From Oscillospiraceae bacterium (lineage in GTDB: Bacteria; Bacillota; Clostridia; Oscillospirales; Ruminococcaceae), in contig JAJQHJ010000004.1 in assembly GCA_021199795.1 (NCBI GenBank), positions 124,001 to 188,000 of the forward strand: a stretch of DNA of 64,000 bases, written 5' to 3'. Below are positions 1 through 19,327 of this stretch, piece after piece. How positions within the stretch are numbered: position 1 is the first letter of the stretch; every line of letters begins with the position of its first letter. Below the pieces are notes generated by a model. It had not been told where the DNA came from. It made no database searches and worked only from the letters and a program-made list of their open reading frames with translations. Both the position numbers and the translations under genes were made by a program.

Positions 1-217
1 TTGAGTTGACTATTCCTGAGGTGGTCTCGGCAATTCTCGGAGTCGGGTTGCCGAATCTCTCCTCAATTGTTGTGCCCTTGAACGAGAACGTTCCGAGCTC
101 ATTTATATCGTAAAGCTCTGCAAACTCCCAGCCATAGCCGAAAGTGCCGCTTGTCGGGATAACAGGGTTGTCAAGCTCTATCCCGCAGAGTGTAGTCTTA
201 AGTCTTGAGTCAGCCAT
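1..217 (-). CDS. pyrD: Dihydroorotate dehydrogenase, type 1B catalytic subunit (partial)
   Basis: Only the N-terminal 72 residues lie in the window; the gene runs off the left edge. The translation begins MADSRLKTTLCGIELDNP and contains TSGTFGYGWEF, FKGTT and RFGNPTPRIAETTSG. These are the FMN- and substrate-binding start of type 1 dihydroorotate dehydrogenases. The ATG overlaps the pyrK stop codon (TGATG), and GGGAGG lies just upstream, so the two are translationally coupled. The enzyme oxidises dihydroorotate to orotate in pyrimidine synthesis. The adjoining PyrK supplies the NAD-linked electron-transfer half, which makes this the 1B form. Confidence 0.95.
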   Translation of the reverse strand, partial: MADSRLKTTLCGIELDNPVIPTSGTFGYGWEFAELYDINELGTFSFKGTTIEERFGNPTPRIAETTSGIVNS

Positions 218-957
218 CACATTTCCTCCCAGATAATTTCTTCGCTCGAAAGAACAGGTCCCTCGCGGCAGATTCTCTTGAAGCCGTTCTTTGTCTTGCA
301 GGAACATCCCATGCAGGCTCCGAAGCCGCAGCCCATCCTCTGCTCAAAGCTGTATTCGCCCTCTGACTTCATTATCTTAGCCATAGCCTTGAGCATAGCC
401 ATAGGTCCGCAGGCGTAGAAGTAGGAATAACTTAGGCTCGGGATAACGTCGGTGACCATTCCCTTTTCGCCCTTTGAGCCGTCCTCGGTTACTACTATGA
501 CATTCGCCCCAAGTGCCGAAAACTCCTCTTCATAGAAGACTTCGTCCTGAGTTTTGAAGCCAAGAATGACAGTCGGCCTCTTTCCAGCCTCGACAAGCTT
601 CTTGCAGAGATTATACATCGGCGGCAGACCAACTCCTCCGCCCACGAGAAGCGGGGTCTCCCCACTCTTCGAGACGTCAAAGCCGTTTCCTAACCCAACA
701 AGTATGTCAAGTTCACTTCCGACAGGAAGTGTGGACATAAACTCGGTTCCGTTTCCGACGGTCTTGTAGATAAGAGTCAGGGTTTTCTCGTCATAATCGC
801 AGACGGAAATAGGACGCCTTAAATAGAACCCCTCCAGCCTGATGTTGACAAACTGCCCGCAGTTTTTAATGCCGCCAGTGTCCCCGCCCAAGACCATCCG
901 ATAGGTCTTCGAGGCGATCTTTTCATTTTCGAGAATTTTGTAGATGTTGTCGGTCAT
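217..957 (-). CDS. pyrK: Dihydroorotate dehydrogenase electron transfer subunit
   Basis: This is the 246-residue FAD and 2Fe-2S subunit that passes electrons from dihydroorotate dehydrogenase to NAD. The flavodoxin-reductase-like part includes GFYLRRPISVCDYD (FAD binding) and LVGGGVGLPPMY (NAD binding). The C-terminus holds GCGFGACMGCSCKTKNG and a later ICREGP cysteine, matching the four-Cys 2Fe-2S site of PyrK. I chose the start at 957 (MTDNIYKIL) because GAAAGGAT sits about 8 bases upstream; a longer reading begins at 984. The start overlaps the extended 3' end of pyrC by 35 bases, so translation is probably coupled. It overlaps pyrD by one base. Confidence 0.95.
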   Translation of the reverse strand: MTDNIYKILENEKIASKTYRMVLGGDTGGIKNCGQFVNIRLEGFYLRRPISVCDYDEKTLTLIYKTVGNGTEFMSTLPVGSELDILVGLGNGFDVSKSGETPLLVGGGVGLPPMYNLCKKLVEAGKRPTVILGFKTQDEVFYEEEFSALGANVIVVTEDGSKGEKGMVTDVIPSLSYSYFYACGPMAMLKAMAKIMKSEGEYSFEQRMGCGFGACMGCSCKTKNGFKRICREGPVLSSEEIIWEEM

Positions 958-2293
958 ATTTATATCCTTTCGTATAGTAATCACGCTCGCCCTGCGGGCT
1001 CGCGAACCTCTCAGTCAGCCTGACGGCTGCCAGCTCCCCTAAATTAGGGGAGCCTTGTTGCGAAGCCACTACTGGCTCCCCCTTGCTAAGGGGAGCTGTC
1101 GCCGCAGGCGACTGAGAGGTTTCCGCAAGTATGCACTTCCCATAAACCATTCTCCCCGCAAACGGCGTTGCCCTGCCCATGGTTTTGAATTCATCCGGGT
1201 TGATGGTGTAGGGTGTTGCTATTTCAAACACCGAGAATCCTGGGTCTTCGTCAATTCCGAAGCGTTTTCTTGGGTTTATCGACATCAGTTCAACAAGCTT
1301 TTCTATGGTGATGATGCCGGGGCGAACCAGTTCTGTATAGAGGACTGGGAAAGCAGTTTCGAGCCCGACTATTCCCATGGCACTCCCGGCTAAGCCTCTT
1401 GACTTCTCCTCAGCTGAGTGCGGGGCATGATCTGTTGCTATCATGTCGATGGTGCCGTCGAGGATTCCCTCTATCAGGGCTTCTTTATCTGCTTTTGACC
1501 GCAGTGGCGGGTTCATCTTGAATCTGCCGTCCTCCTCAAGATCCTCGTCGCAAAGAACCAGGTAGTGCGGTCCTGTTTCGCAGGTTACGTCCACTCCGCG
1601 CTTCTTGGCATCCCTGATAAGCTGAACGCTTTCTTTCGTGGATATATGGCAGACGTGATACGACGCACCCGTCTTCTCGGCTAAGGCTATATCCCGCTCA
1701 ATCTGCCTGTATTCGCTTTCGCTTGAAATGCCTTTGTGGTTGTGCTCTCTGCAATAGACCCCATCATGGATGTAGCCGCCATTCAGAAGCGAATTGTCCT
1801 CGCAGTGGGCGGCGATAATTTTCCCAAGGCTTTTAGCTCGTAGCATAGCCTCTTCCATCATATCAGATTCTTGGACTCCATGCCCGTCGTCGGAAAACGC
1901 GCAGACATATGGGCTCATAGAATCCATGTCCGAAAACTCTTTTCCAAGCTCGCCCTTGGTGATTGCGCCATAGGGAATCACCCTGACTGCGGCGTCACGG
2001 TCAATTATATCAAGCTGAACCCTGAGATTTTCAAGGCTGTCCGGCACAGGATTCAGGTTCGGCATGGTGCAGACGGTCGTGTAGCCGCCGGCTTTTGCTG
2101 CCAGACTTCCAGATTTAATAGTTTCTTTATATGAAAAGCCCGGCTCTCTGAAATGCACGTGGACATCACAAAGACCCGGGACAATTATGTAGTTTTCAAT
2201 ATATGACGGCGCGAAGCCAGAGGAACAGAGATACTCCTCGGCAAAAAGACGCTTTTTCTCGTTCAAGCAAACCGCCCTCAACGAAGCTCCCAT
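923..2293 (-). CDS. pyrC: Dihydroorotase with repeat-derived C-terminal extension
   Basis: Class I dihydroorotase closes N-carbamoyl-aspartate to dihydroorotate. The amidohydrolase signatures are present in order: DVHVHFREPG (metal), GGYTTVCTMPN, HCEDN, CHISTKES, TCETGPHY and ATDHAPHS (catalytic Asp). The start at 2293 has AAGGAGGAG eight bases upstream. The domain appears to end near residue 390 (TPFAGRMVYGKCILA). The last 66 or so residues read through a dispersed repeat (1005-1122) and then into the pyrK leader. This tail is low-complexity-like and unrelated to the family, and it probably replaced the native stop. The gene heads pyrC-pyrK-pyrD. Confidence 0.94.
   Translation of the reverse strand: MGASLRAVCLNEKKRLFAEEYLCSSGFAPSYIENYIIVPGLCDVHVHFREPGFSYKETIKSGSLAAKAGGYTTVCTMPNLNPVPDSLENLRVQLDIIDRDAAVRVIPYGAITKGELGKEFSDMDSMSPYVCAFSDDGHGVQESDMMEEAMLRAKSLGKIIAAHCEDNSLLNGGYIHDGVYCREHNHKGISSESEYRQIERDIALAEKTGASYHVCHISTKESVQLIRDAKKRGVDVTCETGPHYLVLCDEDLEEDGRFKMNPPLRSKADKEALIEGILDGTIDMIATDHAPHSAEEKSRGLAGSAMGIVGLETAFPVLYTELVRPGIITIEKLVELMSINPRKRFGIDEDPGFSVFEIATPYTINPDEFKTMGRATPFAGRMVYGKCILAETSQSPAATAPLSKGEPVVASQQGSPNLGELAAVRLTERFASPQGERDYYTKGYKYDRQHLQNSRK
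1005..1122. repeat. Dispersed palindromic repeat, family R, copy 1
   Basis: A 118-bp element bounded by the inverted termini AACCTCTCAGTC and GACTGAGAGGTT. It has two inner hairpins, each with a CTCCCCT/AGGGGAG stem. It lies inside the pyrC reading frame and encodes part of its C-terminal tail. Related copies are at 29041, 30551, 43752 and 50922. Confidence 0.9.
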
Positions 2294-2328
2294 AACGCCG
2301 ACTCCTCCTTGTTCCGAAAGTTACTTTA

Positions 2329-2357
2329 AGTATAGCAGAAAGTCAAGAGAAAGTCAA
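2329..2357 (-). promoter_or_regulatory. Promoter of pyrCKD
   Basis: TTGACT (2357-2352) and TATACT (2334-2329) are spaced by 17 bases, 36 bases upstream of the pyrC start. A second TTGACT copy lies in the spacer as part of a tandem CTTGACTTTCT repeat. Confidence 0.75.
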
Positions 2358-2360
2358 GAG

Positions 2361-2384
2361 TAGGGGCGGATATTATCCGCCCGA
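2361..2384. repeat. Dispersed repeat, family U, copy 1
   Basis: A 24-bp unit, TAGGGGCGGATATTATCCGC followed by CCG, containing the palindrome GCGGATA-T-TATCCGC. The same unit recurs at 48354, 48401 (inverted) and 52945. Confidence 0.85.
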
Positions 2385-2436
2385 AAACTGCCGTCGAGAA
2401 TTACCGTCCAAAAAGTGCTGCCAGAAGTACTACATT

Positions 2437-2580
2437 TTATCTATCATTATACTCTTCATATGAAGCCGTCGACGGTTCGATTTTCATGTCAGACCCGCTT
2501 GTAGTGAACACCCAAGCGTCATTTTCAAACAGGATGATATCCATCTTCGGGCTTTCGTAATTCTGATTTGTCTTCATCAT
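2437..2580 (-). CDS. Short peptide of 47 residues, unknown role
   Basis: A small open frame, MMKTNQNYESPKMDIILF onwards, that contains VFTTSGSD and ends EEYNDR. GAGGAGG lies eight bases before the first ATG, a better start than an in-frame codon at 2631. It begins 19 bases after the stop of the secreted transglutaminase-like gene and is probably co-transcribed. It has no signal peptide and no cysteines and is acidic. Short peptides with a YESPKMEII...ITTSG pattern are common hypothetical genes in gut Clostridia. I do not know a proven function. A substrate or partner of the neighbouring transglutaminase-like protein is possible but is inference only. Confidence 0.6.
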   Translation of the reverse strand: MMKTNQNYESPKMDIILFENDAWVFTTSGSDMKIEPSTASYEEYNDR

Positions 2581-2599
2581 GTCATTTTCCTCCTCGGGG

Positions 2600-4585
2600 T
2601 CATTGCCAGTTGCCGTAGGCTGCTGCTTCAACGCCGTAGTAATAGATGGCTTTGCAGAGGTCTACTGCTTCCTGTGTTATGTTATATTCACTTGAAACGC
2701 CGGTTTCAACTATGTGGGCGACATATGTATACACGCTGTAGGTTGTGTAAGCCTCGCCGTCCTTATAAACAGTATATGCTGTGCCCATCTTTCTTGCGGG
2801 AACCTTGAATTCAACATAGTAGCCGGTTGAATCTGTGTTCACCTCAAGTGTTTCACCGTCAACGGTGTAGGTGCTTGTGTTGTCCCCGACATAGACCACA
2901 ACATAGATTCCGTCCCTGTTAAGTGCAAGCGACTTTGAAATGCCGTCAGACTCGCACACATTGCTTATCGTCTCGTCCCATGCCGCAACCGGGTCAGTCC
3001 AGTCTGCATCAAGGCTTGCGATGCTGTCCTGCAAGCTGCTTTCACCGCCAACATAAAGCTGTGCATAATAAGCATAGTTCAGCACGGCTTCGCAGAGGGC
3101 TCTTTCATCCTCCCAGCCGTCGGTGGTCAGGGCGTATTCGCAGTAATCATAAGCCGAGAATGTTCCGGCATCGATTTCATTTGTGCCATCTGTGAGAGTA
3201 GCAACTATTTCGGAGCTAACGTCGGTCGGACTGACATATACAGTGTAGCGATAATAGGTCACGCCGCTTATTGTCTTGGTTTCGGCGGTTACTGTGTCCG
3301 CGGAGGTTCCGCCAACTGTGGCAACCAGGGAATACTCATCGGGGTTAGTCACACCGCTCATGACAAAGTAATATGTAACTCCTATCTCGCCGTCCAGGGT
3401 CAGGGCTCTGCCATAGAACCTTGTGCCCAGTGTGAGGTAGTCCTCCGGGTACAAAGCTGTGGTGTTGCTGTCATAGATATAATAGATATACTGGTTTCCG
3501 GCATAGAAGATATAGTCCCAGCCGTTATAGTCGGTTGCATATGCATCATCCGCGCAGACCATGAATAGCTCGCCATCCTGCCCGGCAGAACCCGAGTCAC
3601 TGTTGGTTACGTCTACAAGATAGTTGATTCCGTCCATATAGACGATATTCCACATATGGGCTCCTGCTCCGGTGGCACCCTGCATATAGCCGGTGACGGT
3701 TATGCAGTCAAGACCGCCGTCGAGGTCGCAGAGATACTGGAACGCTTTCGAGTAGCCCTCGCAGACGACGTCAGTACTCTCGTCCCCGTCAAATACATAA
3801 ACCAGCTGCCAGATATCGCCATAGTCGGTGTCATCGTCAGTAGTGTCATCATAGGAAACAAGTGCGCATATTTCGTCCTTATACGCAGTCAGCCTTTCAA
3901 TGTCCGAGTAGCCGGCATACTTATCCACTATGGTCTGAGCAGCCGCAGCAGCAGTCTTGGCAGCTTCAACCTTTGAAGAGTTGACTGTAGTTTCTGAGCC
4001 ATCAAGCTGGTAATCAACAGAAACGCAGAAAGAAAACGTGAGCGTAAGAGCTATGTATGTTGAATATGCGCCGCCGCTAATGTTCGTGGTACATCCTGTG
4101 TCCTTGTCAAACCAATACAGCTCGTAAGGGCAATCACTGAGAAGATAATATAAAACCGTGTTGGACGAAAAAGCATACTGGAAAGCTGTCCAGGCTTCAC
4201 TGCCCGTAGATGCGCCAAAATACGAAGCGTCATAGGTCACAGCCAGGTCAATTACTGACGACGATGTCTCACCGGATGCGATTTTTGCTATAGCGGTTTT
4301 CAGTGCGGAGTATATGTCATAGTTGACCCCGCTCAGTGCATCTTCACCTGTATAGGTGGCGGTGAGCATGATGCCGCTGTTATCGCTGAATCCCAGGAGC
4401 TCTGAAACATAGCTCTCAAGGAGCTCGTCATTGTCGGCAAGGGAGGAAGAATCCACCTCAACCGTCTCAGTTATAGAATAAATCTCTGTTGCCTCCTCCG
4501 CATCGCCGGCAAACAGCGACAGCGGCAGAACCTGGATCGCCATCACCAGGGCAACAACCAAAGATAAAACGCTTCGTAATTTCAT
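2600..4585 (-). CDS. Secreted transglutaminase-like superfamily protein
   Basis: A 661-residue exported protein. It starts with a signal peptide (MKLRSVLSLVVALVMAIQ, then LPLSLFAGDA). A transglutaminase/protease-like core lies near residues 270-340. Its Cys-His-Asp elements are visible: VVCEGYSKAFQYLC, AGAHMWNIV and YLVDVTNSD. The rest is acidic and rich in Ser, Thr, Tyr and Asp, as in extracellular proteins. The start at 4585 is preceded by GAAAGGA; an earlier in-frame codon at 4618 lacks a ribosome site. Family members act as cysteine peptidases or amidases on peptides or the cell wall; the substrate here is unknown. A TTGACA-18-TATACT promoter lies upstream. Confidence 0.82.
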   Translation of the reverse strand: MKLRSVLSLVVALVMAIQVLPLSLFAGDAEEATEIYSITETVEVDSSSLADNDELLESYVSELLGFSDNSGIMLTATYTGEDALSGVNYDIYSALKTAIAKIASGETSSSVIDLAVTYDASYFGASTGSEAWTAFQYAFSSNTVLYYLLSDCPYELYWFDKDTGCTTNISGGAYSTYIALTLTFSFCVSVDYQLDGSETTVNSSKVEAAKTAAAAAQTIVDKYAGYSDIERLTAYKDEICALVSYDDTTDDDTDYGDIWQLVYVFDGDESTDVVCEGYSKAFQYLCDLDGGLDCITVTGYMQGATGAGAHMWNIVYMDGINYLVDVTNSDSGSAGQDGELFMVCADDAYATDYNGWDYIFYAGNQYIYYIYDSNTTALYPEDYLTLGTRFYGRALTLDGEIGVTYYFVMSGVTNPDEYSLVATVGGTSADTVTAETKTISGVTYYRYTVYVSPTDVSSEIVATLTDGTNEIDAGTFSAYDYCEYALTTDGWEDERALCEAVLNYAYYAQLYVGGESSLQDSIASLDADWTDPVAAWDETISNVCESDGISKSLALNRDGIYVVVYVGDNTSTYTVDGETLEVNTDSTGYYVEFKVPARKMGTAYTVYKDGEAYTTYSVYTYVAHIVETGVSSEYNITQEAVDLCKAIYYYGVEAAAYGNWQ

Positions 4586-4636
4586 AATCTGAATCCTTTC
4601 AATAAATCGCAGGTTCACAAACTTCTATATACGTAA

Positions 4637-4666
4637 AGTATACCATGCACCCGCCGTATTTGTCAA
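4637..4666 (-). promoter_or_regulatory. Promoter of the secreted transglutaminase gene
   Basis: TTGACA (4666-4661) and TATACT (4642-4637) with an 18-base spacer, about 52 bases upstream of the start codon. Confidence 0.75.
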
Positions 4667-4693
4667 CTATTATTTTGTGATTATGCATAAAAA

Positions 4694-4735
4694 GCAACCC
4701 CCTCCGCCGCCGCAAGGCAGTAGTAGAGGGGAAAT
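4694..4735 (-). terminator. Terminator of the ATP-grasp/M14 operon
   Basis: On the minus strand a GC-rich hairpin (CCCCTC ... GAGGGG with an inner GCC/GGC) is followed by TTGCTTTTTATG. It lies just after the stop at 4745. Confidence 0.65.
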
Positions 4736-4744
4736 TGTGGATGC

Positions 4745-5671
4745 TCACGCTTTGATTATCTTATAAATCACCGCTTCCGCAAAGACAAGCGGGCGGTTGT
4801 ATCTGAAGAAGACTATTCCGTCGGTCGGGGCAGTGATCTTTTCGACTACATTTCCCTCGAGCGGATCGAGGATTTCGCAGAGGAGGTCGCCTTTTTCAAA
4901 GCGGTCGCCGGTCTGGGCGTAAGGACGGTAGATGCCCGACTTGACAGAGTGAATCTGGACGAGTTCACTCTCGGAAATAATCTCGGTTAGGCTTCCTCCC
5001 GGGATTTTTTGCGTTATGATGCCGCGATTAAAGGCAAACCTGAGCACCGCTTCAATCGCTATTTTTGCAGACGGCAAATCTATCTGGTCTGTAGCGTTCG
5101 TGTAGAGCGAAAACGCCTTGGTCTCCCATATCTGCCAGTTGTAGTTAAGTGTAGTGGTGTCATACGGTCTCGGGGTGCGGATGAATGCATACGGAAGCCC
5201 GAAATCAAGCATGTAGTTATGGTCGGTAAATCCCGTCTCCATCAGCTTTACATGCGAGAGGAAGTCGCCCTGCTGATAGAAGCTTGCAAACTGGACGCCG
5301 AATTTGTAGCCCTGGATTTCCTCGAAGAGACCGTCCGCAATCCTCTGGGTAGTCTCGCCCATGTCATAGCCGGGGAACATGCGGTTGATGTCGGTATTGT
5401 CCATCGTCCAGAAACGCTTGCCGATGTTCATAGAATAGTAGTTGACGCATGGGATAATTAAAATCTCGTGATTCGGAGCTATCTTCCCCTCTTTTTCAAG
5501 CCGCTTGAACTTCTGGACAAGCTGAGAGCACACATACATCTGCTGCACTTCGTTTCCTCTCATCGAGCCAACTATGCAGAGTGCCCTCTCTCCGCTTCCG
5601 AAGCGGTAGCCGACAATGTCCATAGGCTCTCTGTAGGGGGAGGTTATCGAGTAAATAGTCTCTTTACGCAT
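4745..5671 (-). CDS. M14 deacylase-like paralogue with lost active site
   Basis: A 308-residue homologue of the succinylglutamate desuccinylase/aspartoacylase branch of M14. It aligns along its length with the upstream neighbour (for example INRMFPGYDMGETTQRIADG against MNRIFPGTPDGTMAEHIAYD). The zinc site is gone. The G-x-H-G-D-E motif reads SMRGNE, so His is Arg38, and the second His position is Phe128 (VQFAS against DIHAS). The catalytic Glu region VVEMG is replaced by SLYTN. It is therefore likely a non-catalytic partner or binding protein. The start at 5671 follows GGGAGGTG, and it overlaps the upstream gene by 8 bases. It is the last gene of a five-gene operon. Confidence 0.85.
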   Translation of the reverse strand: MRKETIYSITSPYREPMDIVGYRFGSGERALCIVGSMRGNEVQQMYVCSQLVQKFKRLEKEGKIAPNHEILIIPCVNYYSMNIGKRFWTMDNTDINRMFPGYDMGETTQRIADGLFEEIQGYKFGVQFASFYQQGDFLSHVKLMETGFTDHNYMLDFGLPYAFIRTPRPYDTTTLNYNWQIWETKAFSLYTNATDQIDLPSAKIAIEAVLRFAFNRGIITQKIPGGSLTEIISESELVQIHSVKSGIYRPYAQTGDRFEKGDLLCEILDPLEGNVVEKITAPTDGIVFFRYNRPLVFAEAVIYKIIKA

Positions 5672-6608
5672 TATGGACACCTCCCAGGATTCTTGCAATA
5701 AGCGAGCCGCCATAGACGACGGGATATTCTCTTAAAGTAAATATTCTTCCGTCGCAGGGGGATGTGACATACTCTTCAACCCTGCCGGTGGACGGGTCTA
5801 AAACGTCTCCGATATGGTCGCCACTCCTGATGTCGACCCAGTGCTCAACACTCGGGATGAATATTCCGGCAGCCGACGAATTCACGAACGCGACGTCGTG
5901 GTCAGTCGAGAGGATAGCCTTTCTCACGGGCTCAGTCTCCCCTGTCCAAATGCCGAGGTTTTTGAGCAAGTTAAGGATTCCCGCAACAAGCTGGTCGCAA
6001 TATTCTTTTGTGATTCTCATGCCGACGCCCATTTCAACAACAAGGGTTTTCGTGCCGATAGAGTTCAGGCTATATGCAAGGGTCGATTCAAGGACTGTTG
6101 CCGAGCTGTGAACCCAGATAAAGTCGGTGCCGAGCATTTCGGCATAGGGGACGAGCTCATCGGCAGTAATCTCGTTGATTCTGACCTGAGGGATTTCTCT
6201 TAAATAAATGTTGCTGGCGTGGATATCGATGCAGATGTCGGCACCCTTGATATCATTAATGATATCATATGCGATATGCTCCGCCATGGTGCCGTCGGGA
6301 GTGCCGGGGAAGATTCTGTTCATGTCGAGGTCAAACATCGGCATACCTCTCTGGATAGAATCAACGCCAAGGGGGTTCAGTGCCGGATAAATATCGACAA
6401 TTCCCTCAAGCTTGGAAGCATTTTTTGTTAAGATGTCCGCAAGCCTGGCGCATACAAGCTGACCCTCCAGCTCGTCGCCATGTGTTCCCGTGACAATGCA
6501 AGCGCGCTTCTTTCTTTTCGTGGAGCGCGCCATATTTGAAATCCGATTCTTGCGGATAACAAGATTCTCATTAACCGCTAACGCCGCCTGGGCGATTGTT
6601 TCTATCAT
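5664..6608 (-). CDS. M14-family succinylglutamate desuccinylase/aspartoacylase-like enzyme
   Basis: A 314-residue zinc deacylase homologue with an intact site: TGTHGDELEG gives zinc ligands His43 and Glu46, CIDIHAS gives His130, and LVVEMGVG holds the probable catalytic Glu192. Enzymes of this branch hydrolyse N-acyl amino acids or small amide conjugates; the substrate cannot be read from sequence. AGAAGGGAA precedes the ATG. It sits between the transglutaminase and a degenerate paralogue, so both probably act in the amidoligase pathway encoded by the operon. Confidence 0.87.
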   Translation of the reverse strand: MIETIAQAALAVNENLVIRKNRISNMARSTKRKKRACIVTGTHGDELEGQLVCARLADILTKNASKLEGIVDIYPALNPLGVDSIQRGMPMFDLDMNRIFPGTPDGTMAEHIAYDIINDIKGADICIDIHASNIYLREIPQVRINEITADELVPYAEMLGTDFIWVHSSATVLESTLAYSLNSIGTKTLVVEMGVGMRITKEYCDQLVAGILNLLKNLGIWTGETEPVRKAILSTDHDVAFVNSSAAGIFIPSVEHWVDIRSGDHIGDVLDPSTGRVEEYVTSPCDGRIFTLREYPVVYGGSLIARILGGVHNA

Positions 6609-6624
6609 AGGTTGTTATTCCCTT

Positions 6625-7398
6625 CTACTGTACTATCTGTGATTTCACCGTCTGCGTGGACTCCGTTATTCCCACATAGCACCCGGATTCAATCGGGCAG
6701 TCGGCATAATCCCTGCCGTGGCAGAGTTTTAAGTAGTGCGTGCTTATAAGGCAGTTGTTCACGGGGTCTATTCCATACCAGCGGGAGCCGTCGTTTACCT
6801 CCACCCATGCGTGGGTTTCACCCTCGTCGCAGGCAAGCCCGGCAACATATCGGCAAGGGATTCCTCCCATTCGGCAGAGCGCGAGCATGATGTGTGCATA
6901 GTCCTGGCAGACGCCTTTTCCGAGGGCAAGTGCCTCCTCGGCAGTTGTGTGGACATCAGTGACGCCTTTTTCATAGGTCATGTATTCATATAAGCTGTCC
7001 GCAAGGGCGAGTGAACGGTATAAGACATTCGATTCGGTAGGCTGATGGGCTTCATAAAACGCCGCCAGAGCTTCTCCCGGATGGGTTAAAGGCGACTGAT
7101 AGGCATACATAACAGGAGCCTTGCCGGAAACGGTGTAGCTTGATGTTATGGACGCCGTGCCCTTGACGGAGAACGAGAACTTACTGTGCGGCTTCTCAAT
7201 TCTCCCGCAGAGGAGCGAGTTTCCGAAGCTGTCCCGCGAGTTCCAGATCACTCCGCCCGACGGCTGGATAATATATCTCGGCTCGCTTATAATCTGCCGG
7301 TCATCAGAAAGCGGCAGACACCGTAGTGTGAAGCAGTGGGAGCTTATCGGATCCCCAAACTCAAACTCGGTGCTGTATTCAAAACTCAGCTTCTTCAT
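6625..7398 (-). CDS. Transglutaminase-like cysteine peptidase of the ATP-grasp operon
   Basis: A 257-residue cytoplasmic protein with no signal peptide. Residues 1-100 form the beta-rich N-terminal domain typical of bacterial transglutaminase-like proteins. The core has Cys164 (GKGVCQDYAH), His196 (ETHAWVEV) and Asp211 (GIDPVNN), a complete catalytic triad. Proteins of this type are conserved neighbours of circularly permuted ATP-grasp and alpha-E proteins, and comparative work on amidoligase systems predicts that they cleave or process the amide made by the ATP-grasp enzyme. It overlaps the alpha-E gene by 20 bases and is followed 16 bases later by the active M14 gene. Confidence 0.9.
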   Translation of the reverse strand: MKKLSFEYSTEFEFGDPISSHCFTLRCLPLSDDRQIISEPRYIIQPSGGVIWNSRDSFGNSLLCGRIEKPHSKFSFSVKGTASITSSYTVSGKAPVMYAYQSPLTHPGEALAAFYEAHQPTESNVLYRSLALADSLYEYMTYEKGVTDVHTTAEEALALGKGVCQDYAHIMLALCRMGGIPCRYVAGLACDEGETHAWVEVNDGSRWYGIDPVNNCLISTHYLKLCHGRDYADCPIESGCYVGITESTQTVKSQIVQ

Positions 7399-8092
7399 CA
7401 GTCTTCACCTCAATAAGTCTCCCGATCAGGCTCAAAGCCTCTCCCCGGCAGCTCTCAATTCCCTTTCCTCGCGTCAGAAGCTTCTCCAAGCCCTCATATG
7501 CCTCAACATTCAGAACAGGATTATAAACATTCTCATAAGAATGCACCAGAACGGTCATATAGTCGAACACTCTTCTTATGTCCTCGTCCTTATATGACAG
7601 CCTGACATAGAGGTCGAGACGCTCAACAGCCTTTCCTATGTAGATAAGATCCCGTCCCTCAAGGTCTTCCATATTGTCCTCAACGCTTCCCCAGAATGCA
7701 TATAGGTCATCCTTTACGGGAAGTAAATCATATCTGACTTTTCTTGTGCCCCGGACGGATTTGAACTTATTTAGTGCCAGCTGCAAGTATGAAAGCGAAG
7801 ACGACTTGATGGCTTCTCTTAAGACAATTCCGTTGTCCATAGCCCGCTCAAGGTTAGATCTGAGCGAGTTCGGGTCGGTCTTGTCGAACAAGTATCTGTC
7901 GAAGAAATCGTTATCGTCGGTGTAGATGTTAGGCGCACCTATTTTCTCTAAGTATTTGACATAGGAATCCTTGTCTACGTCGATCATCAGGTCGAAATAG
8001 TTGAAAAATGAATCTAAGGTTGTGAAAACCCTTTCTGTATATCTGCCCAGCCAATAGAGGTTTGAGCCGTTTAATCTTGTGATAGTACCCAT
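7379..8092 (-). CDS. Alpha-E domain-containing protein (DUF403)
   Basis: A 237-residue, mainly helical protein starting MGTITRLNGSNLYWLGRYTE, the typical alpha-E opening (NLYWMGRYLER in the family). It is somewhat shorter than the usual 300 or so residues. Alpha-E proteins have no proven catalytic activity and almost always sit beside a circularly permuted ATP-grasp ligase. It overlaps the ATP-grasp gene by 22 bases and the transglutaminase by 20, indicating strict co-translation. Confidence 0.88.
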   Translation of the reverse strand: MGTITRLNGSNLYWLGRYTERVFTTLDSFFNYFDLMIDVDKDSYVKYLEKIGAPNIYTDDNDFFDRYLFDKTDPNSLRSNLERAMDNGIVLREAIKSSSLSYLQLALNKFKSVRGTRKVRYDLLPVKDDLYAFWGSVEDNMEDLEGRDLIYIGKAVERLDLYVRLSYKDEDIRRVFDYMTVLVHSYENVYNPVLNVEAYEGLEKLLTRGKGIESCRGEALSLIGRLIEVKTDEEAEF

Positions 8093-9399
8093 GTGTCCTT
8101 GAAGCCTCCTCCTTGAGATGAATTTACTACGAACGAATCGGGATTACGCGAGAATCTTGTAAGACCGCTAGCCCAGACCTTGGTGGTTTCGCCTGAGAGG
8201 ACGAATGCTCGGAGGTCTGCCTTTCTCGGAACGGTTGAGCCGTCCTCGCTCAAGATGTCGAGGTCTATGAAGTCGATAACCTCCTGAGCTATGAAGCGTC
8301 TTGATTGCTCGGTGATAAGAGTACGCCACTCTGAAAGCTGCTCTTTCGTCATGTCTCTTCCGAATACAACTCCGTATCCTCCCGCTTCGGAAACGTCCTT
8401 GACTACAAGGGTTTCGAGGTGGTCGAGTACGTACTTTCTGTCCTCTTCATAGAACGGCAGGTACGTTGGGGCATTCTTTAAGATTGGCTCTTCGCCAAGG
8501 TAGTACTTAATCATCTTCGGGACGAAATAGTAAATTCCCTTGTCGTCCGCAACGCCGTTGCCGGGTGCGTTCATGATGGCGACATTTCCGGCTCTGTAGG
8601 CGTCCATTATATGTGGCACACCTATCAATGACTCCGGCACAAAGGTCATAGGATCGAGGTATTCGTCGGAAATTCTCCTGTAGACCGTTCCTACTCTCGT
8701 CCTGCCACCCTGATAGTCGCGCATGTAGAGGATATTGTTCTCGACAAAGAGGTCGCTGTTCTGAACCAATACCGCACCGGTTCTCTCAGCTAAGTATGAA
8801 TGCTCAAAGTAGGCGGCATTATATCGACCGGGAGTTAAGATAACGTTGATTCCTCCGCAGTTGACGCTGTCCATGGTGTCCTTTAAGAGCGAAGCATAGT
8901 TTCTGTTGTCGACGACAGATACGTCGTGGAACACATCCGGGCTGGTCATTCTGCATAATTCCCTCGCTATGAGCGGATATGATGCGCCAGACGGGATTCT
9001 CAGGTTGTCCTCTAAGATATACCAGGTTCCGTCCTTAGCCTGAACCAAATCGATTTCGGAAATATGGCTGTAAACGCCGTGAGCGGGAGTGACCCCCTCG
9101 CACTGCGGCAGATAGCCTTTTGATATGTAGACAAAGTCGGCAGGGATAATGCCATCCTTAATAATCTTCTTCTCGGAATAGATGTCTTTTAAGAAGAGAT
9201 TCAAGGCGTCAACACGCTGGATAAGACCCTTTTCCATGTCGGCAAAATCCGACTTGGTTATGATTCTGGGGATTGCGTCAAAGGGGAAGAGCTGTTCCTT
9301 GAAGACGCCGTTTTTATAGATTCCGAACTTGACGCCATACCTGGCAAGAAGCTCATTGATTTCGCGGGTATTGGCAACGGGTGTGTTCATTTCAGTCAT
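8071..9399 (-). CDS. Circularly permuted ATP-grasp protein (DUF407, type 2)
   Basis: A 442-residue predicted peptide or amide ligase. Characteristic stretches are FPFDAIPRIITKSDF, RVDALNLFLKDIY, YILEDNLRIPSGASY (nucleotide and magnesium site of the permuted fold), VVKDVSEAGGYGVVFG and QEVIDFIDLDIL. ATP-grasp enzymes make an acyl-phosphate and join it to an amine. This permuted family was proposed to add amino acids or amines to proteins or peptides, but its substrates are not established. The start could be 9399 or the ATG at 9390; the ribosome site is weak for both. It is the first gene of the five-gene operon, with a promoter and terminator-like hairpin directly upstream. Confidence 0.9.
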   Translation of the reverse strand: MTEMNTPVANTREINELLARYGVKFGIYKNGVFKEQLFPFDAIPRIITKSDFADMEKGLIQRVDALNLFLKDIYSEKKIIKDGIIPADFVYISKGYLPQCEGVTPAHGVYSHISEIDLVQAKDGTWYILEDNLRIPSGASYPLIARELCRMTSPDVFHDVSVVDNRNYASLLKDTMDSVNCGGINVILTPGRYNAAYFEHSYLAERTGAVLVQNSDLFVENNILYMRDYQGGRTRVGTVYRRISDEYLDPMTFVPESLIGVPHIMDAYRAGNVAIMNAPGNGVADDKGIYYFVPKMIKYYLGEEPILKNAPTYLPFYEEDRKYVLDHLETLVVKDVSEAGGYGVVFGRDMTKEQLSEWRTLITEQSRRFIAQEVIDFIDLDILSEDGSTVPRKADLRAFVLSGETTKVWASGLTRFSRNPDSFVVNSSQGGGFKDTWVLSQD

Positions 9400-9416
9400 C
9401 TCACTTTAAAAAATGC

Positions 9417-9451
9417 AAAAAGACGCCCAAGAAACCTTGGACGTCTTTGCC
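9417..9451 (-). terminator. Terminator-like hairpin in the leader of the ATP-grasp operon
   Basis: On the minus strand AAAGACGTCCAAG pairs with CTTGGGCGTCTTT across a short TTTC-type loop and is followed by TTTTTGCATTTTTT. It lies 18 bases before the ATP-grasp start and downstream of the predicted promoter at 9461-9489. It could stop read-through from the activase gene, or it could act as a 5' attenuator or stabiliser of the operon. Confidence 0.65.
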
Positions 9452-9460
9452 ACTGTATTA

Positions 9461-9489
9461 AGGATAACACACTAAACCGAAAAATTCAA
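9461..9489 (-). promoter_or_regulatory. Promoter of the ATP-grasp/alpha-E/transglutaminase/M14 operon
   Basis: TTGAAT (9489-9484) and TATCCT (9466-9461) with a 17-base spacer. Transcription would start near 9454, leaving the terminator-like hairpin within the first 40 bases of the RNA. Confidence 0.6.
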
Positions 9490-9559
9490 TGGTGAATTTT
9501 GGACAAAGATTTTATTTCCGAAGTTCGGTTCTTTGTACGGTTTGGCTCACGTTGGGGGT

Positions 9560-9583
9560 GGAAGTTCGCCTTTGGCGAACTTT
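9560..9583 (-). terminator. Hairpin directly after the activase stop codon
   Basis: AAGTTCGCC and GGCGAACTT form a 9-bp stem with a 3-base loop, starting immediately after the TAG at 9584. There is no T run, so it is either an RNA 3' stabiliser or a weak terminator. Confidence 0.45.
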
Positions 9584-12500
9584 CTAGCTGCCAGAGGCAG
9601 CTGTGTTCATAATGAGCATTTGCAGACGATTTTCAACATTTGTCAGGCTCGTGTCAGGGTCAAGGTCGAGCGGCAATATCGATATATCCGGATGCTTGTC
9701 TTTGAGGCTCTTGATGACTCCTCTGCCGCAGATGTGGTTCGGGAGGCAGCCAAAGGGCTGGAGGATTATGAACGACTTCACGCCCTTTTCGGCGTAGTGG
9801 TCAATCTCCGCCGCCATCAGCCAGCCCTCGCCGCAGCTTAAAGTCTTAGGTATTATGTCGCTGACCGAGTCGTAGAGCTTGTTCGGGGACAGAACTTTCT
9901 CATAGAGCGGGTGCTTAACAGCGACTTTTTCAAGCTTATCCTGGACGGTATTGAAGAGGAAATCTACCGCGAACGGATAGGGGAAGATGTTCGCCTTATA
10001 GTCGCTTATCTCGCTCATGGTGGCGAGGAAGTCTTTCCTTAACTGGTCTGTGACCCTCGGGAAGACCGCTTCCATGCCGTTCGACTCAAGATACCTTTCA
10101 ATATGGAAGTTTGAGCCGGGATGGTATGTAACTAGTAGCTCACCGGTGACGAACACCCTTGGCTTAAGATGGCTCCGGTCATACGAAATATTCGCCATGT
10201 CGTCTATCGTTTCCGGGAAGACTCGCCTTGCCTCTTTGATGCTCTTCTTGATTCCGTCAGCAAGCTTATTGATGCAAGCCATATAGACCCTGTCCGTCTC
10301 GCCCGGGTTGATTTCGTAGGGACGAATCTTCCTTGCCAGGTCTGTTAAGATATCCATCATCATGAACACCCATACGGCTTCGAGGACTGCACTGACTCCT
10401 AAAAGGAACACTCCCGGGTGCATGTCCTTTGAATCCCCGCCGTCGGTTGTGAGAATCGGAACTTCGGTGAAGCCTGCACTGTCCAAGCCCTTTCTCAGGA
10501 GCCCGGCATAGTGGGACATTCTGCAATCGCACTGGAACTTGACCATGCCTACTGCAACCTCATCCTGCTTGTAGTTGCCCTTTTGGAGCTCGCCTATCAG
10601 CTCGCCTATTACCATCTGGCAGGGGAAGCAGATGTCGTTGTGGACATACTTCTTGCCAAGGGCGATTTCATTCGGTCCGCCAATGGGGATGGTCTTCACC
10701 ATGAAGCCCTCTTTTTCGCAGATGGCTTGGAGGAGAATTGAGACCTCCTCCGAAATGTTCGGAATTAAAAGTGTGCGGATCTTCTTGTCTTTTTTATAGA
10801 ACTTAGCCGGGCTCGGCTCGGGGATCGGCTTCGGCGGGTTGTCAAGACCCAGATTTCTCCTGATTTCGACCGTCTCGATAAACGACTGAACCCTGATTCC
10901 TAAGGAACCTGAAGCATCGCTCTCGTCAATTTTTAAGATCAGCGGCGGCTTGTCGCTCGTCGTGGTCATGATTCTTATAATCTCGTCTGAGAGGATAGCA
11001 TCGTGCCCGCAGCCGAAGCTGACGAGCTGAACATATTCGAGCTCCGGCTCCCTCGCCGCGATCACGGCTGATGCAAGCATACGGGTGTGGAAGTCGTTTG
11101 TAATCTCGGCACGGGTGTTGTGCAGGTCGACTTCATTGAGTCCCGGCAGGCTGTCAGCAGTGAGAACAGGGACGCCTTTTTCGGTGAACTTCTTCGAGAT
11201 ATCGTGGCTGATGAACCGGTCTGTATGGTATGGTCTTCCCGCCAGAACTACTGCGAACTTGCCCTCTTTCTTTGCGTCCTCCATAATTTCGGTTGCACGG
11301 TCGGTAAGAGTCTTCCGGAAGAGCTTGATCGCGGCTTCAGCCTGAGTGAAAGCCTGCTCAGCTTCCTTTTCTGAAGCACCCAATTCTTTTACGGCATATT
11401 CGCAAATCTGCGTGTGGCGGTTCTTCTCTGAGAACCAGTGGAAAATGGGCGTGTCGAATGTGACGCCGTACCGCTCAGCCGGGTTCTGCGAATTCTTCAC
11501 GACCATCGGGTAGCCCTGGACTACTGAGCAGACATATGGGCTCTGCTTGTCGACTCCCTCCGGCGGCATGTGCATGACATATGGCATGAATATCCGGTCG
11601 ACGCCCTTGTTTGCCAGGTCGGCGATGTGCCCGTGCGCAAGCTTCGCAGGGAAACAGATTGTGTCCGAAGCAACAAACGAAATGCCGCTTTCATATATGC
11701 CTCGTGAACTGGGCGAGGAGAATTTGACCTTATAGCCAAGAGCCTTGAAGAAAGTGCTCCAGAAAGGCATACTGTCCCAGAATTCAAGTACTCTCGGCAG
11801 TCCCACGGTTAGATCGACCGGCTCGCGGACTGGCGTGAAATCATAATCCTTGAACAGAAGCTTTTCGCGCTCAAGGAACATGTCGGGAGCCTTTTTCGGC
11901 TTCTCAAGAGGAACTGAGCCCTCGAGCTCTGCTCCCCTCTCGCACCTGTTTCCTGTGACCCAGGCTCTGCCGGAGGAGAAACGGGTAATAGTTCTCTTGC
12001 AGTGGTTCGCGCAATGCGGGCAGGCAACGCCAGTTTCGGTTGTATAGTCAAAATTCCTGACGGCATCAAGACCGATGAAGTGGGTTTCGCCTTTCATCTT
12101 TCTTCTCGTTAAGATGGCGGCACCGACAGCTCCCATTTCGCCTGGATACGGAGAAAGGGTGACATTCTTCCCGAGATAGTCTTCAATAGCCTTTAAGACT
12201 GCGAAATTCCGGAAAGTGCCGCCCTGGACTACAACACGCTTGCCAAGCTCGTCTGTATTCGAGATTCTGACAACCTTTGTGAAGACGTTTTCGATGATAG
12301 ACCGGCAGAGACCAGCCATGATGTCATCAGGGAGTTTTCCGTTTCTCTGCTCGTTGATAATAGTGCTGTTCATGAAGACGGTGCACCGGCTCCCGAGGTG
12401 GGCGGGATGCTCTGAGCGGAAAGCAGCTTCCGCAATGTCCTCAACCTTTATACCTAAAGATGACGCGAAGTTCTCTAGGAACGACCCACAGCCAGAGGAG

Positions 12501-13900
12501 CAAGCTTCATTAAGCGTCATATTCGTGATGACGCCGTTTTTGAGCCATATAGCTTTCATGTCCTGCCCGCCGATATCGAGGAGGAAGTCTGCATCCGGGA
12601 AGTATTTAAGGCAGCCCTGAGAATGGGCGACCGTTTCAACAATGTGATAGTCTGCATTGAACGCGCTCGCGAATAGCTGCTCGCCATAGCCGGTTGTGCC
12701 GACGCCGAGGACTTCAAGCCTGATTCCCTGCTCGGCATATTTGTCCTCAAGATCTGATAAGCCCTTGCAGATGACCCTTAAAGGCTCGCCGTTGTTATTA
12801 GAATAGAACCGGTCGACAATCCGCTCGTGCTCATCCATGAGGACAAGCTTTGATGTGGTGCTTCCCGAGTCTATTCCTATGTAGACCTTGAGAACTCCGT
12901 TTTCGGTTATCGGCTCTTCAAGCTCACGAAGCTCTGCCATATGCCTTGATTCAAACTCATTTCTCTCTTCCTCATTCCTGAAGAACGGCGGTGCGGATTC
13001 GCCGTCACCCATATTATCCTTTGCCGATTCGAGACGGGAAATGAGCTCGTCTGCTGTGTAGGATTCGTCCCCCGAGAGCTTTTCCGCGGCAATCGCAGTA
13101 CCATAGGCGACAATGGTCTCCGGGTGCTCGGGGATTACTATGTCAGATTCCGAAAGATTCAGCCTTTCGGCGAAAACTCTTATGAGGGTCGGGTTGAATG
13201 TTAAGGGTCCGCCCTCGAAAATTATGGGTGCTTTCAGCTCAAGTCCCTGTGAAAGCCCGCCTATAGTCTGCTTCGCGATGGCGTGAAAGCTTGAAAGGGC
13301 GATGTCCTCCCTCTTTGCGCCCTGGATGAGAAGCGGCTGGATGTCCGTCTTCGCAAAAACGCCGCAGCGTCCGGAAATGTCGAAAATTGTTCTCCCTTTT
13401 TCGGCAAGCGATTCAAACTCCTCGGTTTTTACTCCAAGAAGCTTTGCTATTTCGTCGATGAATGCTCCCGTTCCGCCGGCGCAGCTGCCGTTCATTCTCA
13501 TGTCGGAGGTCATGAGTTCTCCCGTGTGCTCGTCCTTGTGGAAGAAGACGACCTTTGCGTCCTGACCGCCTAGCTCGATTGCAGTTCTCACATTCGGGTA
13601 GAGCTTCTTGACTGCCGCAGCGTTCGCGACAACCTCCTGGATGAACTGGATTCCAGCCGCCTCCGCAACCGGTTTTCCTCCCGAACCGCACACAGCCGCA
13701 CGGAACTTGGTTCCGGGAAACCCCTTAGAAACCTCTTTCAGAAGCCCTATAGCAGTCTCGCGCTGGCGGGCATTGTGCCTTGTATATCGCGAGAACAGAA
13801 CCTCATCCGAATCAGGCTTTTTAATTGCGACCTTGACCGTCGTCGACCCGACATCGATTCCTAAGAGAAGCGTGCCTGTGTTTATATCTCTATCTGTCAA
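9584..13900 (-). CDS. 2-hydroxyacyl-CoA dehydratase activase-related giant protein
   Basis: A 1,438-residue protein with two BadF/BcrA-type ATPase domains. The first has GIDVGSTTVKVAI and an Fe-S ligand region (NGSCAGGTGAFID); the second has GIDSGSTTSKLVL and NEACSSGCGSFLEN. Then follow a DUF2229-type region (VGLPRVLEFWDSMPFW) and a dehydratase-like C-terminal part (CFPCQMVIGEL). Activases of this type use ATP to drive electrons into radical dehydratases, but this fused form has no settled substrate. I chose a TTG start at 13900 because GGAGGAG sits just upstream; an in-frame ATG at 13927 lies upstream of that ribosome site. It is followed by a hairpin, not by an operon partner. Confidence 0.88.
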   Translation of the reverse strand: MTDRDINTGTLLLGIDVGSTTVKVAIKKPDSDEVLFSRYTRHNARQRETAIGLLKEVSKGFPGTKFRAAVCGSGGKPVAEAAGIQFIQEVVANAAAVKKLYPNVRTAIELGGQDAKVVFFHKDEHTGELMTSDMRMNGSCAGGTGAFIDEIAKLLGVKTEEFESLAEKGRTIFDISGRCGVFAKTDIQPLLIQGAKREDIALSSFHAIAKQTIGGLSQGLELKAPIIFEGGPLTFNPTLIRVFAERLNLSESDIVIPEHPETIVAYGTAIAAEKLSGDESYTADELISRLESAKDNMGDGESAPPFFRNEEERNEFESRHMAELRELEEPITENGVLKVYIGIDSGSTTSKLVLMDEHERIVDRFYSNNNGEPLRVICKGLSDLEDKYAEQGIRLEVLGVGTTGYGEQLFASAFNADYHIVETVAHSQGCLKYFPDADFLLDIGGQDMKAIWLKNGVITNMTLNEACSSGCGSFLENFASSLGIKVEDIAEAAFRSEHPAHLGSRCTVFMNSTIINEQRNGKLPDDIMAGLCRSIIENVFTKVVRISNTDELGKRVVVQGGTFRNFAVLKAIEDYLGKNVTLSPYPGEMGAVGAAILTRRKMKGETHFIGLDAVRNFDYTTETGVACPHCANHCKRTITRFSSGRAWVTGNRCERGAELEGSVPLEKPKKAPDMFLEREKLLFKDYDFTPVREPVDLTVGLPRVLEFWDSMPFWSTFFKALGYKVKFSSPSSRGIYESGISFVASDTICFPAKLAHGHIADLANKGVDRIFMPYVMHMPPEGVDKQSPYVCSVVQGYPMVVKNSQNPAERYGVTFDTPIFHWFSEKNRHTQICEYAVKELGASEKEAEQAFTQAEAAIKLFRKTLTDRATEIMEDAKKEGKFAVVLAGRPYHTDRFISHDISKKFTEKGVPVLTADSLPGLNEVDLHNTRAEITNDFHTRMLASAVIAAREPELEYVQLVSFGCGHDAILSDEIIRIMTTTSDKPPLILKIDESDASGSLGIRVQSFIETVEIRRNLGLDNPPKPIPEPSPAKFYKKDKKIRTLLIPNISEEVSILLQAICEKEGFMVKTIPIGGPNEIALGKKYVHNDICFPCQMVIGELIGELQKGNYKQDEVAVGMVKFQCDCRMSHYAGLLRKGLDSAGFTEVPILTTDGGDSKDMHPGVFLLGVSAVLEAVWVFMMMDILTDLARKIRPYEINPGETDRVYMACINKLADGIKKSIKEARRVFPETIDDMANISYDRSHLKPRVFVTGELLVTYHPGSNFHIERYLESNGMEAVFPRVTDQLRKDFLATMSEISDYKANIFPYPFAVDFLFNTVQDKLEKVAVKHPLYEKVLSPNKLYDSVSDIIPKTLSCGEGWLMAAEIDHYAEKGVKSFIILQPFGCLPNHICGRGVIKSLKDKHPDISILPLDLDPDTSLTNVENRLQMLIMNTAASGS

Positions 13901-13955
13901 CTTTACTCCTCCAAAAAAATGCCCCATGGGCAGAAAAACAACGTATTTTGAAACA

Positions 13956-13994
13956 GTGTCGGATAATATTAGCTATTATCGACACTATCCGACA
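13956..13994. promoter_or_regulatory. Overlapping inverted repeats in the activase leader
   Basis: TGTCGGATA (13957-13965) is mirrored by TATCCGACA (13986-13994). Nested inside, GTGTCGGATAATA (13956-13968) pairs with TATTATCGACAC (13974-13985). The two pairings share one arm and exclude each other. This lies just after the activase promoter, so it may be an operator or a switching leader. Further TGTCGGGG copies lie at 14052-14070. Confidence 0.5.
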
Positions 13995-14003
13995 TTAGGG
14001 ATT

Positions 14004-14032
14004 ATTTTATCACATGAGAACAGGAAAGTCAA
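14004..14032 (-). promoter_or_regulatory. Promoter of the activase gene
   Basis: TTGACT (14032-14027) and TAAAAT (14009-14004), 17-base spacer, minus strand. The 340-bp stretch 13901-14240 holds this promoter, the leader inverted repeats and the divergent promoter at 14105, and no gene. Confidence 0.7.
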
Positions 14033-14104
14033 CAGATGATGATGGGGACAATGTCGGGGAAGTGTCGGGGTTTCAGAAAATCATAATTTTCACCTCCTCC
14101 CCAC

Positions 14105-14133
14105 TTGACAAAATCTTCTTTCGGATTTAATAT
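14105..14133 (+). promoter_or_regulatory. Promoter of the acyltransferase/pgi/ABC/nag operon
   Basis: TTGACA (14105-14110) and TAATAT (14128-14133), 17-base spacer. The 100-base leader contains a CCGGATT/AATCCGG hairpin (14163-14184) and the palindrome GTATAC...GTATAC (14202-14216), a possible operator. Confidence 0.8.
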
Positions 14134-14240
14134 AGTATAGTGCAGATTTATACTCCAATTTTCCGGATTGGGGCAAAAATCCGGGACAGGTTCGGAATTT
14201 TGTATACGGAGTATACATACTTCGTGGAAGGAAAGCCATT

Positions 14241-15407: not shown

Positions 15408-15409
15408 TC

Positions 15410-16630: not shown

Positions 16631-16644
16631 CCGAGGTATATTTC

Positions 16645-18212: not shown

Positions 18213-18267
18213 TTTATTAGTCGCGTTTGCGGCTGAAATAAAAAACCTATTTAAGGAGTATACACTT

Positions 18268-19326: not shown

Positions 19327-19327
19327 A

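Follow-up and report, generated by a model that had tools for sequence, protein, structure and literature searches.

Gene content of the locus

The 64,000-nucleotide stretch of an Oscillospiraceae bacterium genome analyzed here (contig JAJQHJ010000004.1, positions 124,001 to 188,000; hereafter the window) carries five genes on its minus strand at 4745-9399, in the order ATP-grasp ligase, alpha-E protein, transglutaminase and two M14 homologues, M14a and M14d (Table 1). We regard it as rather probable that this locus is a variant of the ATP-grasp/alpha-E/transglutaminase amidoligase operons, one in which the hydrolase slot is taken by an active M14a and a dead M14d and in which amide synthesis and hydrolysis form a cycle, as a sequence-only reading of the same DNA had proposed. 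The operon kind is already known. Neither the exchange of the hydrolase nor a dead partner whose half-way state survives turned up in the literature searched, in which no title or opening of an abstract describes an M14 pair in such an operon, an earlier mention in Iyer et al. 2009 being possible. The 'undescribed pathway' of the sequence-only reading is therefore better called a variant of a described operon kind than an unprecedented pathway.

The source genome (2.16 Mb, 99.45% complete) has one alpha-E match and one copy of the M14 pair. Pfam matches agree with the families that had been assigned to all five open reading frames (ORFs). The ligase and alpha-E genes overlap by 22 bases (8071-8092), the alpha-E and transglutaminase genes by 20 (7379-7398) and the two M14 genes by 8 (5664-5671). 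These three overlaps had been read correctly, but the fourth junction, between the transglutaminase and M14a genes, is a gap of 16 bases (6609-6624). M14d probably starts at 5671, which gives 308 amino acids (aa); the mechanical ORF list opens it at an earlier ATG, 5713.

Concerning the core, the ligase matches PF14403 with 460 bits (CP_ATPgrasp_2, E 5.4e-138) and PF04174 with 423 bits, far above the cut-offs, has a solved homologue (3N6X, E 7.6e-119) and is predicted to make an amide or peptide bond. It is 97-98% identical in the eight of nine loci of the genus with a one-piece match, the match in the ninth (L039) being split in two. The alpha-E protein matches PF04168 with 64.5 bits (cut-off 20.8) over model positions 7-164 of 294 only, and stops about 50 residues short of the full-length, 307-aa alpha-E protein of L206, a locus from another class; its E20, R21, E157 and R164 are near-invariant in 70 rows. 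The transglutaminase shows the Transglut_core (PF01841, E 1.2e-20) and Bact_transglu_N (PF08379, E 1.2e-10) domains, and its C164, H196 and D211, which we take to be the catalytic triad, are each present in at least 97% of 73 rows. Hence the three features by which membership in the core was judged were all found: a PF14403/PF04174 ATP-grasp protein, an adjoining alpha-E gene, and a transglutaminase with the PF08379 region and intact Cys/His/Asp.

The hydrolase slot

Excerpts of three papers (PMC6376114, PMC5666114, PMC3597751) credit Iyer et al. 2009 with the peptide-synthesis operons of ATP-grasp, alpha-E and transglutaminase genes, with or without Anbu. The window has the same three families in the same order, but an M14 pair, one member active and the other predicted to be dead, instead of Anbu, and an alpha-E protein without its C-terminal part. 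On a Klebsiella plasmid, ligase, alpha-E and transglutaminase genes are followed by a gene for a proteasome-type (Anbu-type) protease, and therefore the M14 pair occupies the protease position: it fills the hydrolase slot of the known core. The Sinorhizobium and Hymenobacter plasmids show, in gene tables that are incomplete, the three core genes and nothing more on the same strand beside them. In a 159-genome sample of the phylum, two other genomes with alpha-E had either the three genes or alpha-E fused to transglutaminase, with no neighbouring M14 match. In L235 the alpha-E and transglutaminase matches share one 633-aa frame (Table 1). A search for Anbu (PF00227), in which L234 and L235 were not included, found none in G000 and matches above the cut-off in 3 of 20 genomes, none near the operon: G099 and G771 (in both on another contig) and G751 (about 1.67 Mb away). 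Two more genomes matched below the cut-off. The frames in G099, G771 and G751 measure 184-206 aa, a size that we take to be that of HslV.

Conservation of the five genes

When genome contigs were scanned with the M14d alignment, at least 523 relatives came up, the best 80 of which were named and opened, so that this set is biased to close relatives. In 68 of the 80 named loci all five genes share a strand and follow one another in this order; the M14 genes are thus kept with the first three. Eight of the remaining 12 loci reach a contig end where the missing genes would be. The other four are L087; L076, where the ligase is a fragment, M14d is broken and alpha-E is unmatched; and two loci with the pair and without the other three genes, L114 (Clostridium beijerinckii HUN142) and L124 (Clostridium sp. 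LS). The nearest named loci to the window, among the matches listed, belong to Oscillospiraceae metagenome-assembled genomes (MAGs), with 91-94% identity in M14d. Ruminococcus flavefaciens FD-1 and Faecalicatena contorta are among the carriers, as are many MAGs of the Oscillospiraceae and Lachnospiraceae. The five-gene set is a conserved feature of gut and rumen Clostridia.

Two further samples, which share some genomes, were not picked by similarity. Among 99 near relatives, M14d was matched in 16 genomes and alpha-E in 14, all of them within those 16. In the class sample of 393 genomes, M14d orthologues (E < 1e-100) occur in 20 and M14a orthologues in the same 20, the weakest true M14a match being 7.7e-128 and the next 6.5e-22. 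Alpha-E was found in 15 of the 393, every one a carrier of the pair. Fourteen of the 20 carriers (13 and the window) have all five genes side by side and five have just the pair; in the remaining one (G296) the set is split, the pair lying at the end of one contig and alpha-E on a different one. One-to-one pairing is therefore observed directly in the class sample, where neither M14 occurs without its partner, nor alpha-E without the pair; the 20 carriers are spread over 14 genera, shared ancestry inflating the co-occurrence counts. With gene starts picked by a script, M14a and M14d overlap or directly adjoin each other in 68 of 79 loci. The association of a known amidoligase-type core with an active and a dead M14, as it had been proposed, is conserved across many genera, with an order and a pairing beyond chance.

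Outside bacterial genome assemblies, 12 plasmid records match M14d at 20.7-25.9% identity. Six records of a phage collection match it, four of them, at 44-51.5%, being unannotated human faecal 'Bacteriophage sp.' records. One of these (MT835471.1, marked UNVERIFIED), with an M14d homologue at 51.5% identity, is perhaps bacterial DNA.

Active sites of M14a and M14d

Both M14 proteins match AstE_AspA_cat (PF24827), M14a with E 3.2e-24 and M14d with E 7.9e-10. We aligned 87 M14a and 88 M14d sequences with six first and six second copies from another class and four outgroup proteins; the residue counts leave out rows truncated by the start of a contig and rows no longer than 290 residues, and many rows are close relatives. 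We take the His-Glu-His of M14 proteins to bind zinc and Glu192 to be the general base. In M14a, His43, Glu46, His130 and Glu192 are as first read, each in 87 of 87 rows, and their equivalents stand in all six first copies of the other class. In M14d the first zinc His is Arg in 88 of 88 rows (Arg38 in the window), and no alignment restores it. Phe128 had been named as the replacement of the second His. No His stands there, but the residue depends on the register: it is Ala129 in the multi-family alignment (Ala 78, Thr 7 and one each of Pro, Val and Ser; His in 0 of 88) and Gln127 in the profile-profile alignment (His in 2 of 88, L045 and L173), with Phe128 between the two. Whichever register is used, the second His is missing in at least 86 of 88 M14d rows and the first in all 88. 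The catalytic Glu is absent as claimed, its place holding Tyr190 in the window (multi-family alignment) and Tyr in 85 and Phe in 3 of the 88 rows. The third zinc ligand, Glu41, which the sequence-only reading had passed over, is kept in 88 of 88. Asn97 and Arg98 in M14a numbering (N96-R97 in M14d), which from aspartoacylase we take to bind the substrate carboxylate, are kept in all groups of the alignment.

M14d thus has the family score and the fold of PF24827 and lacks two of the three zinc ligands and the catalytic Glu, so that it is probably a non-catalytic M14 paralogue without a zinc site. It may have an unconventional metal site. An alternative site at H140/D171, both invariant in M14d, was considered and rejected: the second copy of the other class has that His together with intact zinc ligands, and therefore H140 is not an obvious replacement ligand.

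The closest solved fold to M14a is that of the DoeB/EutE N-acetyl-L-2,4-diaminobutyrate deacetylase (6TWL, 6TWM), tied with 3CDX and 3NA6. M14a shares its zinc and catalytic residues, but identity over the fold is about 20%, the TIGR02994 score of 64.7 bits lies below the cut-off of 402.7, and a dead partner gene stands beside it here. The cyanophycin dipeptide hydrolase CphZ (8EIN, 8EIP), which cleaves an isoaspartyl dipeptide, is of the same fold family. Both solved relatives are amide hydrolases. Cyanophycin was rejected as a general substrate: its synthetase (TIGR02068) exceeds the cut-off in only 1 of 25 carrier genomes (G240) and not in G000, while matches below the cut-off, to related ligases, occur in 25 of 25 carriers and 14 of 14 controls.

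Dead M14 proteins have precedents. According to an excerpt of PMC11266112, in which the M14 residues are H69, E72, H196 and E270, the pseudopeptidases AEBP1, CPXM2, CPD domain III and Ecm14 have lost the general-base Glu, with Tyr at 270 in the first three, like M14d. These are eukaryotic proteins of the carboxypeptidase branch, whereas M14d is bacterial, belongs to the AstE/DoeB branch and is paired in an operon with an active paralogue. The prozyme of trypanosome AdoMetDC, as described in part of PMC5201418, is a dead paralogue that regulates its active cousin; the enzyme is unrelated and the proposed logic is the same, activation here being only proposed.

A half-way state in another class

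We sampled 62 genomes of another class of the same phylum. Six genomes of one family have a second-copy M14 that is 69-100% identical to that of L206, and the two loci opened (L205 and L206) show the order ligase, alpha-E, transglutaminase, M14, M14. In the second M14 of this class the zinc His/Glu/His are kept and Met replaces the catalytic Glu (6 of 6). In the tree, the second copies of the two classes group together (support 95/93), as do the first copies (94/97). M14d and the second copies of the other class are also joined by the stretches TDINRMFPGY and GETTQRIADG, spotted by eye. The simplest reading would be one old duplication followed by loss of the catalytic Glu and, later and in the Clostridial line, of the zinc ligands; intact zinc ligands with a missing catalytic Glu fit a loss of catalysis before other change. 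The pair and its surviving half-way state would then offer a natural series for a metalloenzyme turning into a pseudoenzyme partner.

M14d might instead have been neofunctionalised, as an enzyme whose own chemistry needs no zinc or as a carrier with a ligand of its own, and have no part in helping M14a, which we consider unlikely. Its R38, Y132, H140, D171 and N176, all differing from M14a, are invariant in 88 of 88 rows, Q43-Q44 stand where M14a has E48-G49, and its stem branch in the tree is long, with 2.73 changes per column. However, M14d co-occurs with M14a and its gene overlaps the M14a gene, the second copy of the other class lost the catalytic Glu while its zinc ligands were intact, and no new catalytic constellation was identified, none having been sought in three dimensions.

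Selection on M14d

Within the genus, with 8 or 9 sequences per gene and synonymous divergence (dS) near 1, so that the values are rough, the median ratio of nonsynonymous to synonymous divergence (dN/dS) was 0.021 for the ligase, 0.037 for alpha-E, 0.047 for the transglutaminase, 0.041 for M14a, 0.040 for M14d and likewise 0.040 for ACTV, which lies upstream. Purifying selection acts on M14d. This contradicts the view of M14d as a decaying pseudogene, which is very improbable. Broken or partial M14d copies do exist (G057 has two in-frame stops, the G006 match falls into three pieces, the G049 copy is partial and that of L076 is broken), but further operon genes are broken or missing in G057, G049 and L076, and M14d alone is affected only in G006. 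Moreover, M14d measures at least 295 aa in 79 of the 80 named loci and has 46 invariant positions in 46 rows. In partial distance correlations over 61 loci, M14a-M14d ranked first of ten gene pairs (0.513), nearly tied with alpha-E/transglutaminase (0.509). A dead copy preserved beside an active enzyme suggests that the two work together.

Proposed cycle and hints of its substrate

We infer a cycle of the following kind. The ATP-grasp enzyme would join a carboxylate to an amine, using ATP, and the alpha-E and transglutaminase proteins would pass on or trim the product. M14a, a putative zinc amidohydrolase of the DoeB/CphZ kind, would later cut the amide beside a free carboxylate, in complex with M14d, and free an amino acid. 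M14d would most likely act as a structural, substrate-binding or allosteric subunit, since its fold and Asn-Arg are kept and its chemistry is not. A broader proposal goes further: that an obligate bacterial M14 enzyme-pseudoenzyme heteromer, born of duplication and stepwise disarmament (catalytic Glu first, zinc ligands later), replaced Anbu in an ATP-grasp operon that is widespread and serves tagging or storage, the hydrolase being a module open to exchange and its substrate or activity being set by the dead subunit. We advance this proposal tentatively, and would not expect it to hold in full.

The neighbours of the pair give hints about the output. In HUN142 (L114), Clostridium sp. LS (L124) and G240, the pair is preceded by an amino-acid ABC transporter, a regulator and a class III aminotransferase. 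In L114 the regulator has a PucR domain, a GltP-like symporter lies downstream, and the aminotransferase scores 547.8 bits with the GABA transaminase model TIGR00700 (cut-off 506.65) and 607.9 with the narrower NF005376, below its cut-off of 676. These neighbours, a transaminase of the GABA type, a regulator of the PucR type and a transporter for amino acids, suggest an amino acid or nitrogen as output. Excerpts of the literature on related operons point to nitrogen as well: in Pseudomonas putida, PP_2685 (proteasome beta type) and PP_2688 (ATP-grasp) are up on nitrate versus ammonium (PMC8050072), the cluster I35_5080-83 of Burkholderia cenocepacia belongs to the sigma54-NtrC regulon (PMC5491218), and the operon is associated with urea genes in marine metagenomes (PMC3597751). 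Together, these data favour a small amide of an amino acid that would be cleaved to feed nitrogen metabolism.

Part of PMC6376114 reports that the ATP-grasp protein of such an operon from Yersinia bercovieri frees phosphate from ATP, that Anbu had no amidase activity on the substrates tested, that no complexes were found between proteins of the Anbu operon, and that published hypotheses on the operon product were unconfirmed as of 2017. The M14 version gives an assayable enzyme for operons whose product stayed unproven, and the small molecules known as substrates of its hydrolase family (N-acetyl-diaminobutyrate, beta-Asp-Arg) suggest a soluble amino-acid amide.

The pair-only loci also bear on another explanation, that the M14 pair salvages amino acids independently, as a hydrolase of N-acyl amino acids or isopeptides that shares the operon only for common regulation. 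L114, L124 and the five of 20 class genomes with the pair and no alpha-E match are what this would predict, as is the aminotransferase adjoining the pair in L114, above one cut-off and below the other. On the other hand, M14d is present in every alpha-E genome (15 of 15 in the class sample, 14 of 14 among the near relatives, some genomes being shared), and the pair sits at the position of the proteasome-type protease of the Klebsiella operon. We find independent salvage improbable, and prefer the cycle; because of those five genomes, it describes most occurrences of the pair and not all.

Several observations weigh against the cycle and the duplication history, in addition to the M14d-specific invariants and the broken copies already described. 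The five pair-only genomes mean that the two modules may act on different things, and the four besides G240 show no amino-acid catabolic neighbours. The nitrogen link is drawn from Anbu-type or three-gene operons of other phyla, and an excerpt of PMC5666114 gives operon expression as unchanged under various conditions, exceptions aside. The ligase match falls into two pieces in L052, L080 and L082 as well as in L039, and L087 has alpha-E through M14d with no ligase match before alpha-E. An alpha/beta hydrolase gene lies upstream of the Klebsiella core, and a putative zinc-binding metallopeptidase gene lies upstream, on the opposite strand, in the Hymenobacter plasmid. The M14d profile finds matches at E <= 0.001 in 33 of the 393 class genomes, and those of the 13 beyond the 20 carriers (1.2e-9 or weaker) were taken as other M14 proteins. 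Finally, the tree comes from a single build and leaves 10 of its 48 inner branches open, and its program gave a warning that long branches meet.

Neighbouring genes

A gene that joins a FUSC/aromatic-acid-exporter domain to a HAD hydrolase was seen close to the operon in 17 of the 80 named loci. In 11 of the 17 it shares the strand of the operon and is no more than about 350 bases away, where it either overlaps the M14d end or comes shortly before the ligase. It was also seen in L165, L168 and L169, with a weak match in L172, and was not found in the window. It is a possible sixth partner or exporter. A supposed FUSC gene upstream of the L054 ligase proved to be ThiC, the FUSC gene of L054 being downstream. 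An ABC-ATPase cluster was rejected as an operon partner, its position and strand being mixed among loci.

Table 1. Coordinates in the window and, where an L number is given, in homologous loci
Feature	Position	Strand	Basis
Circularly permuted ATP-grasp type 2 ligase, 442 aa (predicted amide or peptide ligase)	8071-9399	-	PF14403, PF04174, 3N6X homology
Alpha-E protein, C-terminally shortened, 237 aa	7379-8092	-	PF04168
Transglutaminase-family protein, 257 aa, C164, H196 and D211 intact	6625-7398	-	PF01841, PF08379
M14a, predicted intact DoeB/AstE-like M14 zinc deacylase, 314 aa, H43/E46/H130/E192	5664-6608	-	AstE_AspA_cat, active-site residues
M14d, predicted dead M14 paralogue, 308 aa, R38, E41 kept, second zinc His lost, Tyr190, N96-R97 kept	4745-5671	-	AstE_AspA_cat, residue audit
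Large transglutaminase-like protein	2600-4618
Acyl-CoA dehydratase activase-type protein, 1447 aa	9584-13927
Broken or partial M14d copies (G057, G006, G049)	L041 about 5182-9407, L042 4948-5865, L046 3213-5675
Frame with alpha-E and transglutaminase matches, 633 aa	L235 6561-8462
M14d homologue, MT835471.1	L236 6001-6921
FUSC-HAD gene	L054 10924-12180, L062 10924-12177, L107 10903-12207, L094 4804-6087, L078 4688-6079, L092 4768-6066, L168 11909-13147, L169 4809-6080		Pfam on seven

An Rfam search of window positions 1-20000 gave no RNA regulator at the gathering threshold, and in seven homologous loci tRNAs only. Directly downstream of the operon, the large transglutaminase-like protein scores below the cut-off of the MAG6410 lipoprotein model and, to guess from its N-terminus, may be secreted; comparable matches follow the operon in L032, L034 and L038, three of the nine genus loci. 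The acyl-CoA dehydratase activase-type protein is encoded upstream of the operon in all nine genus loci.

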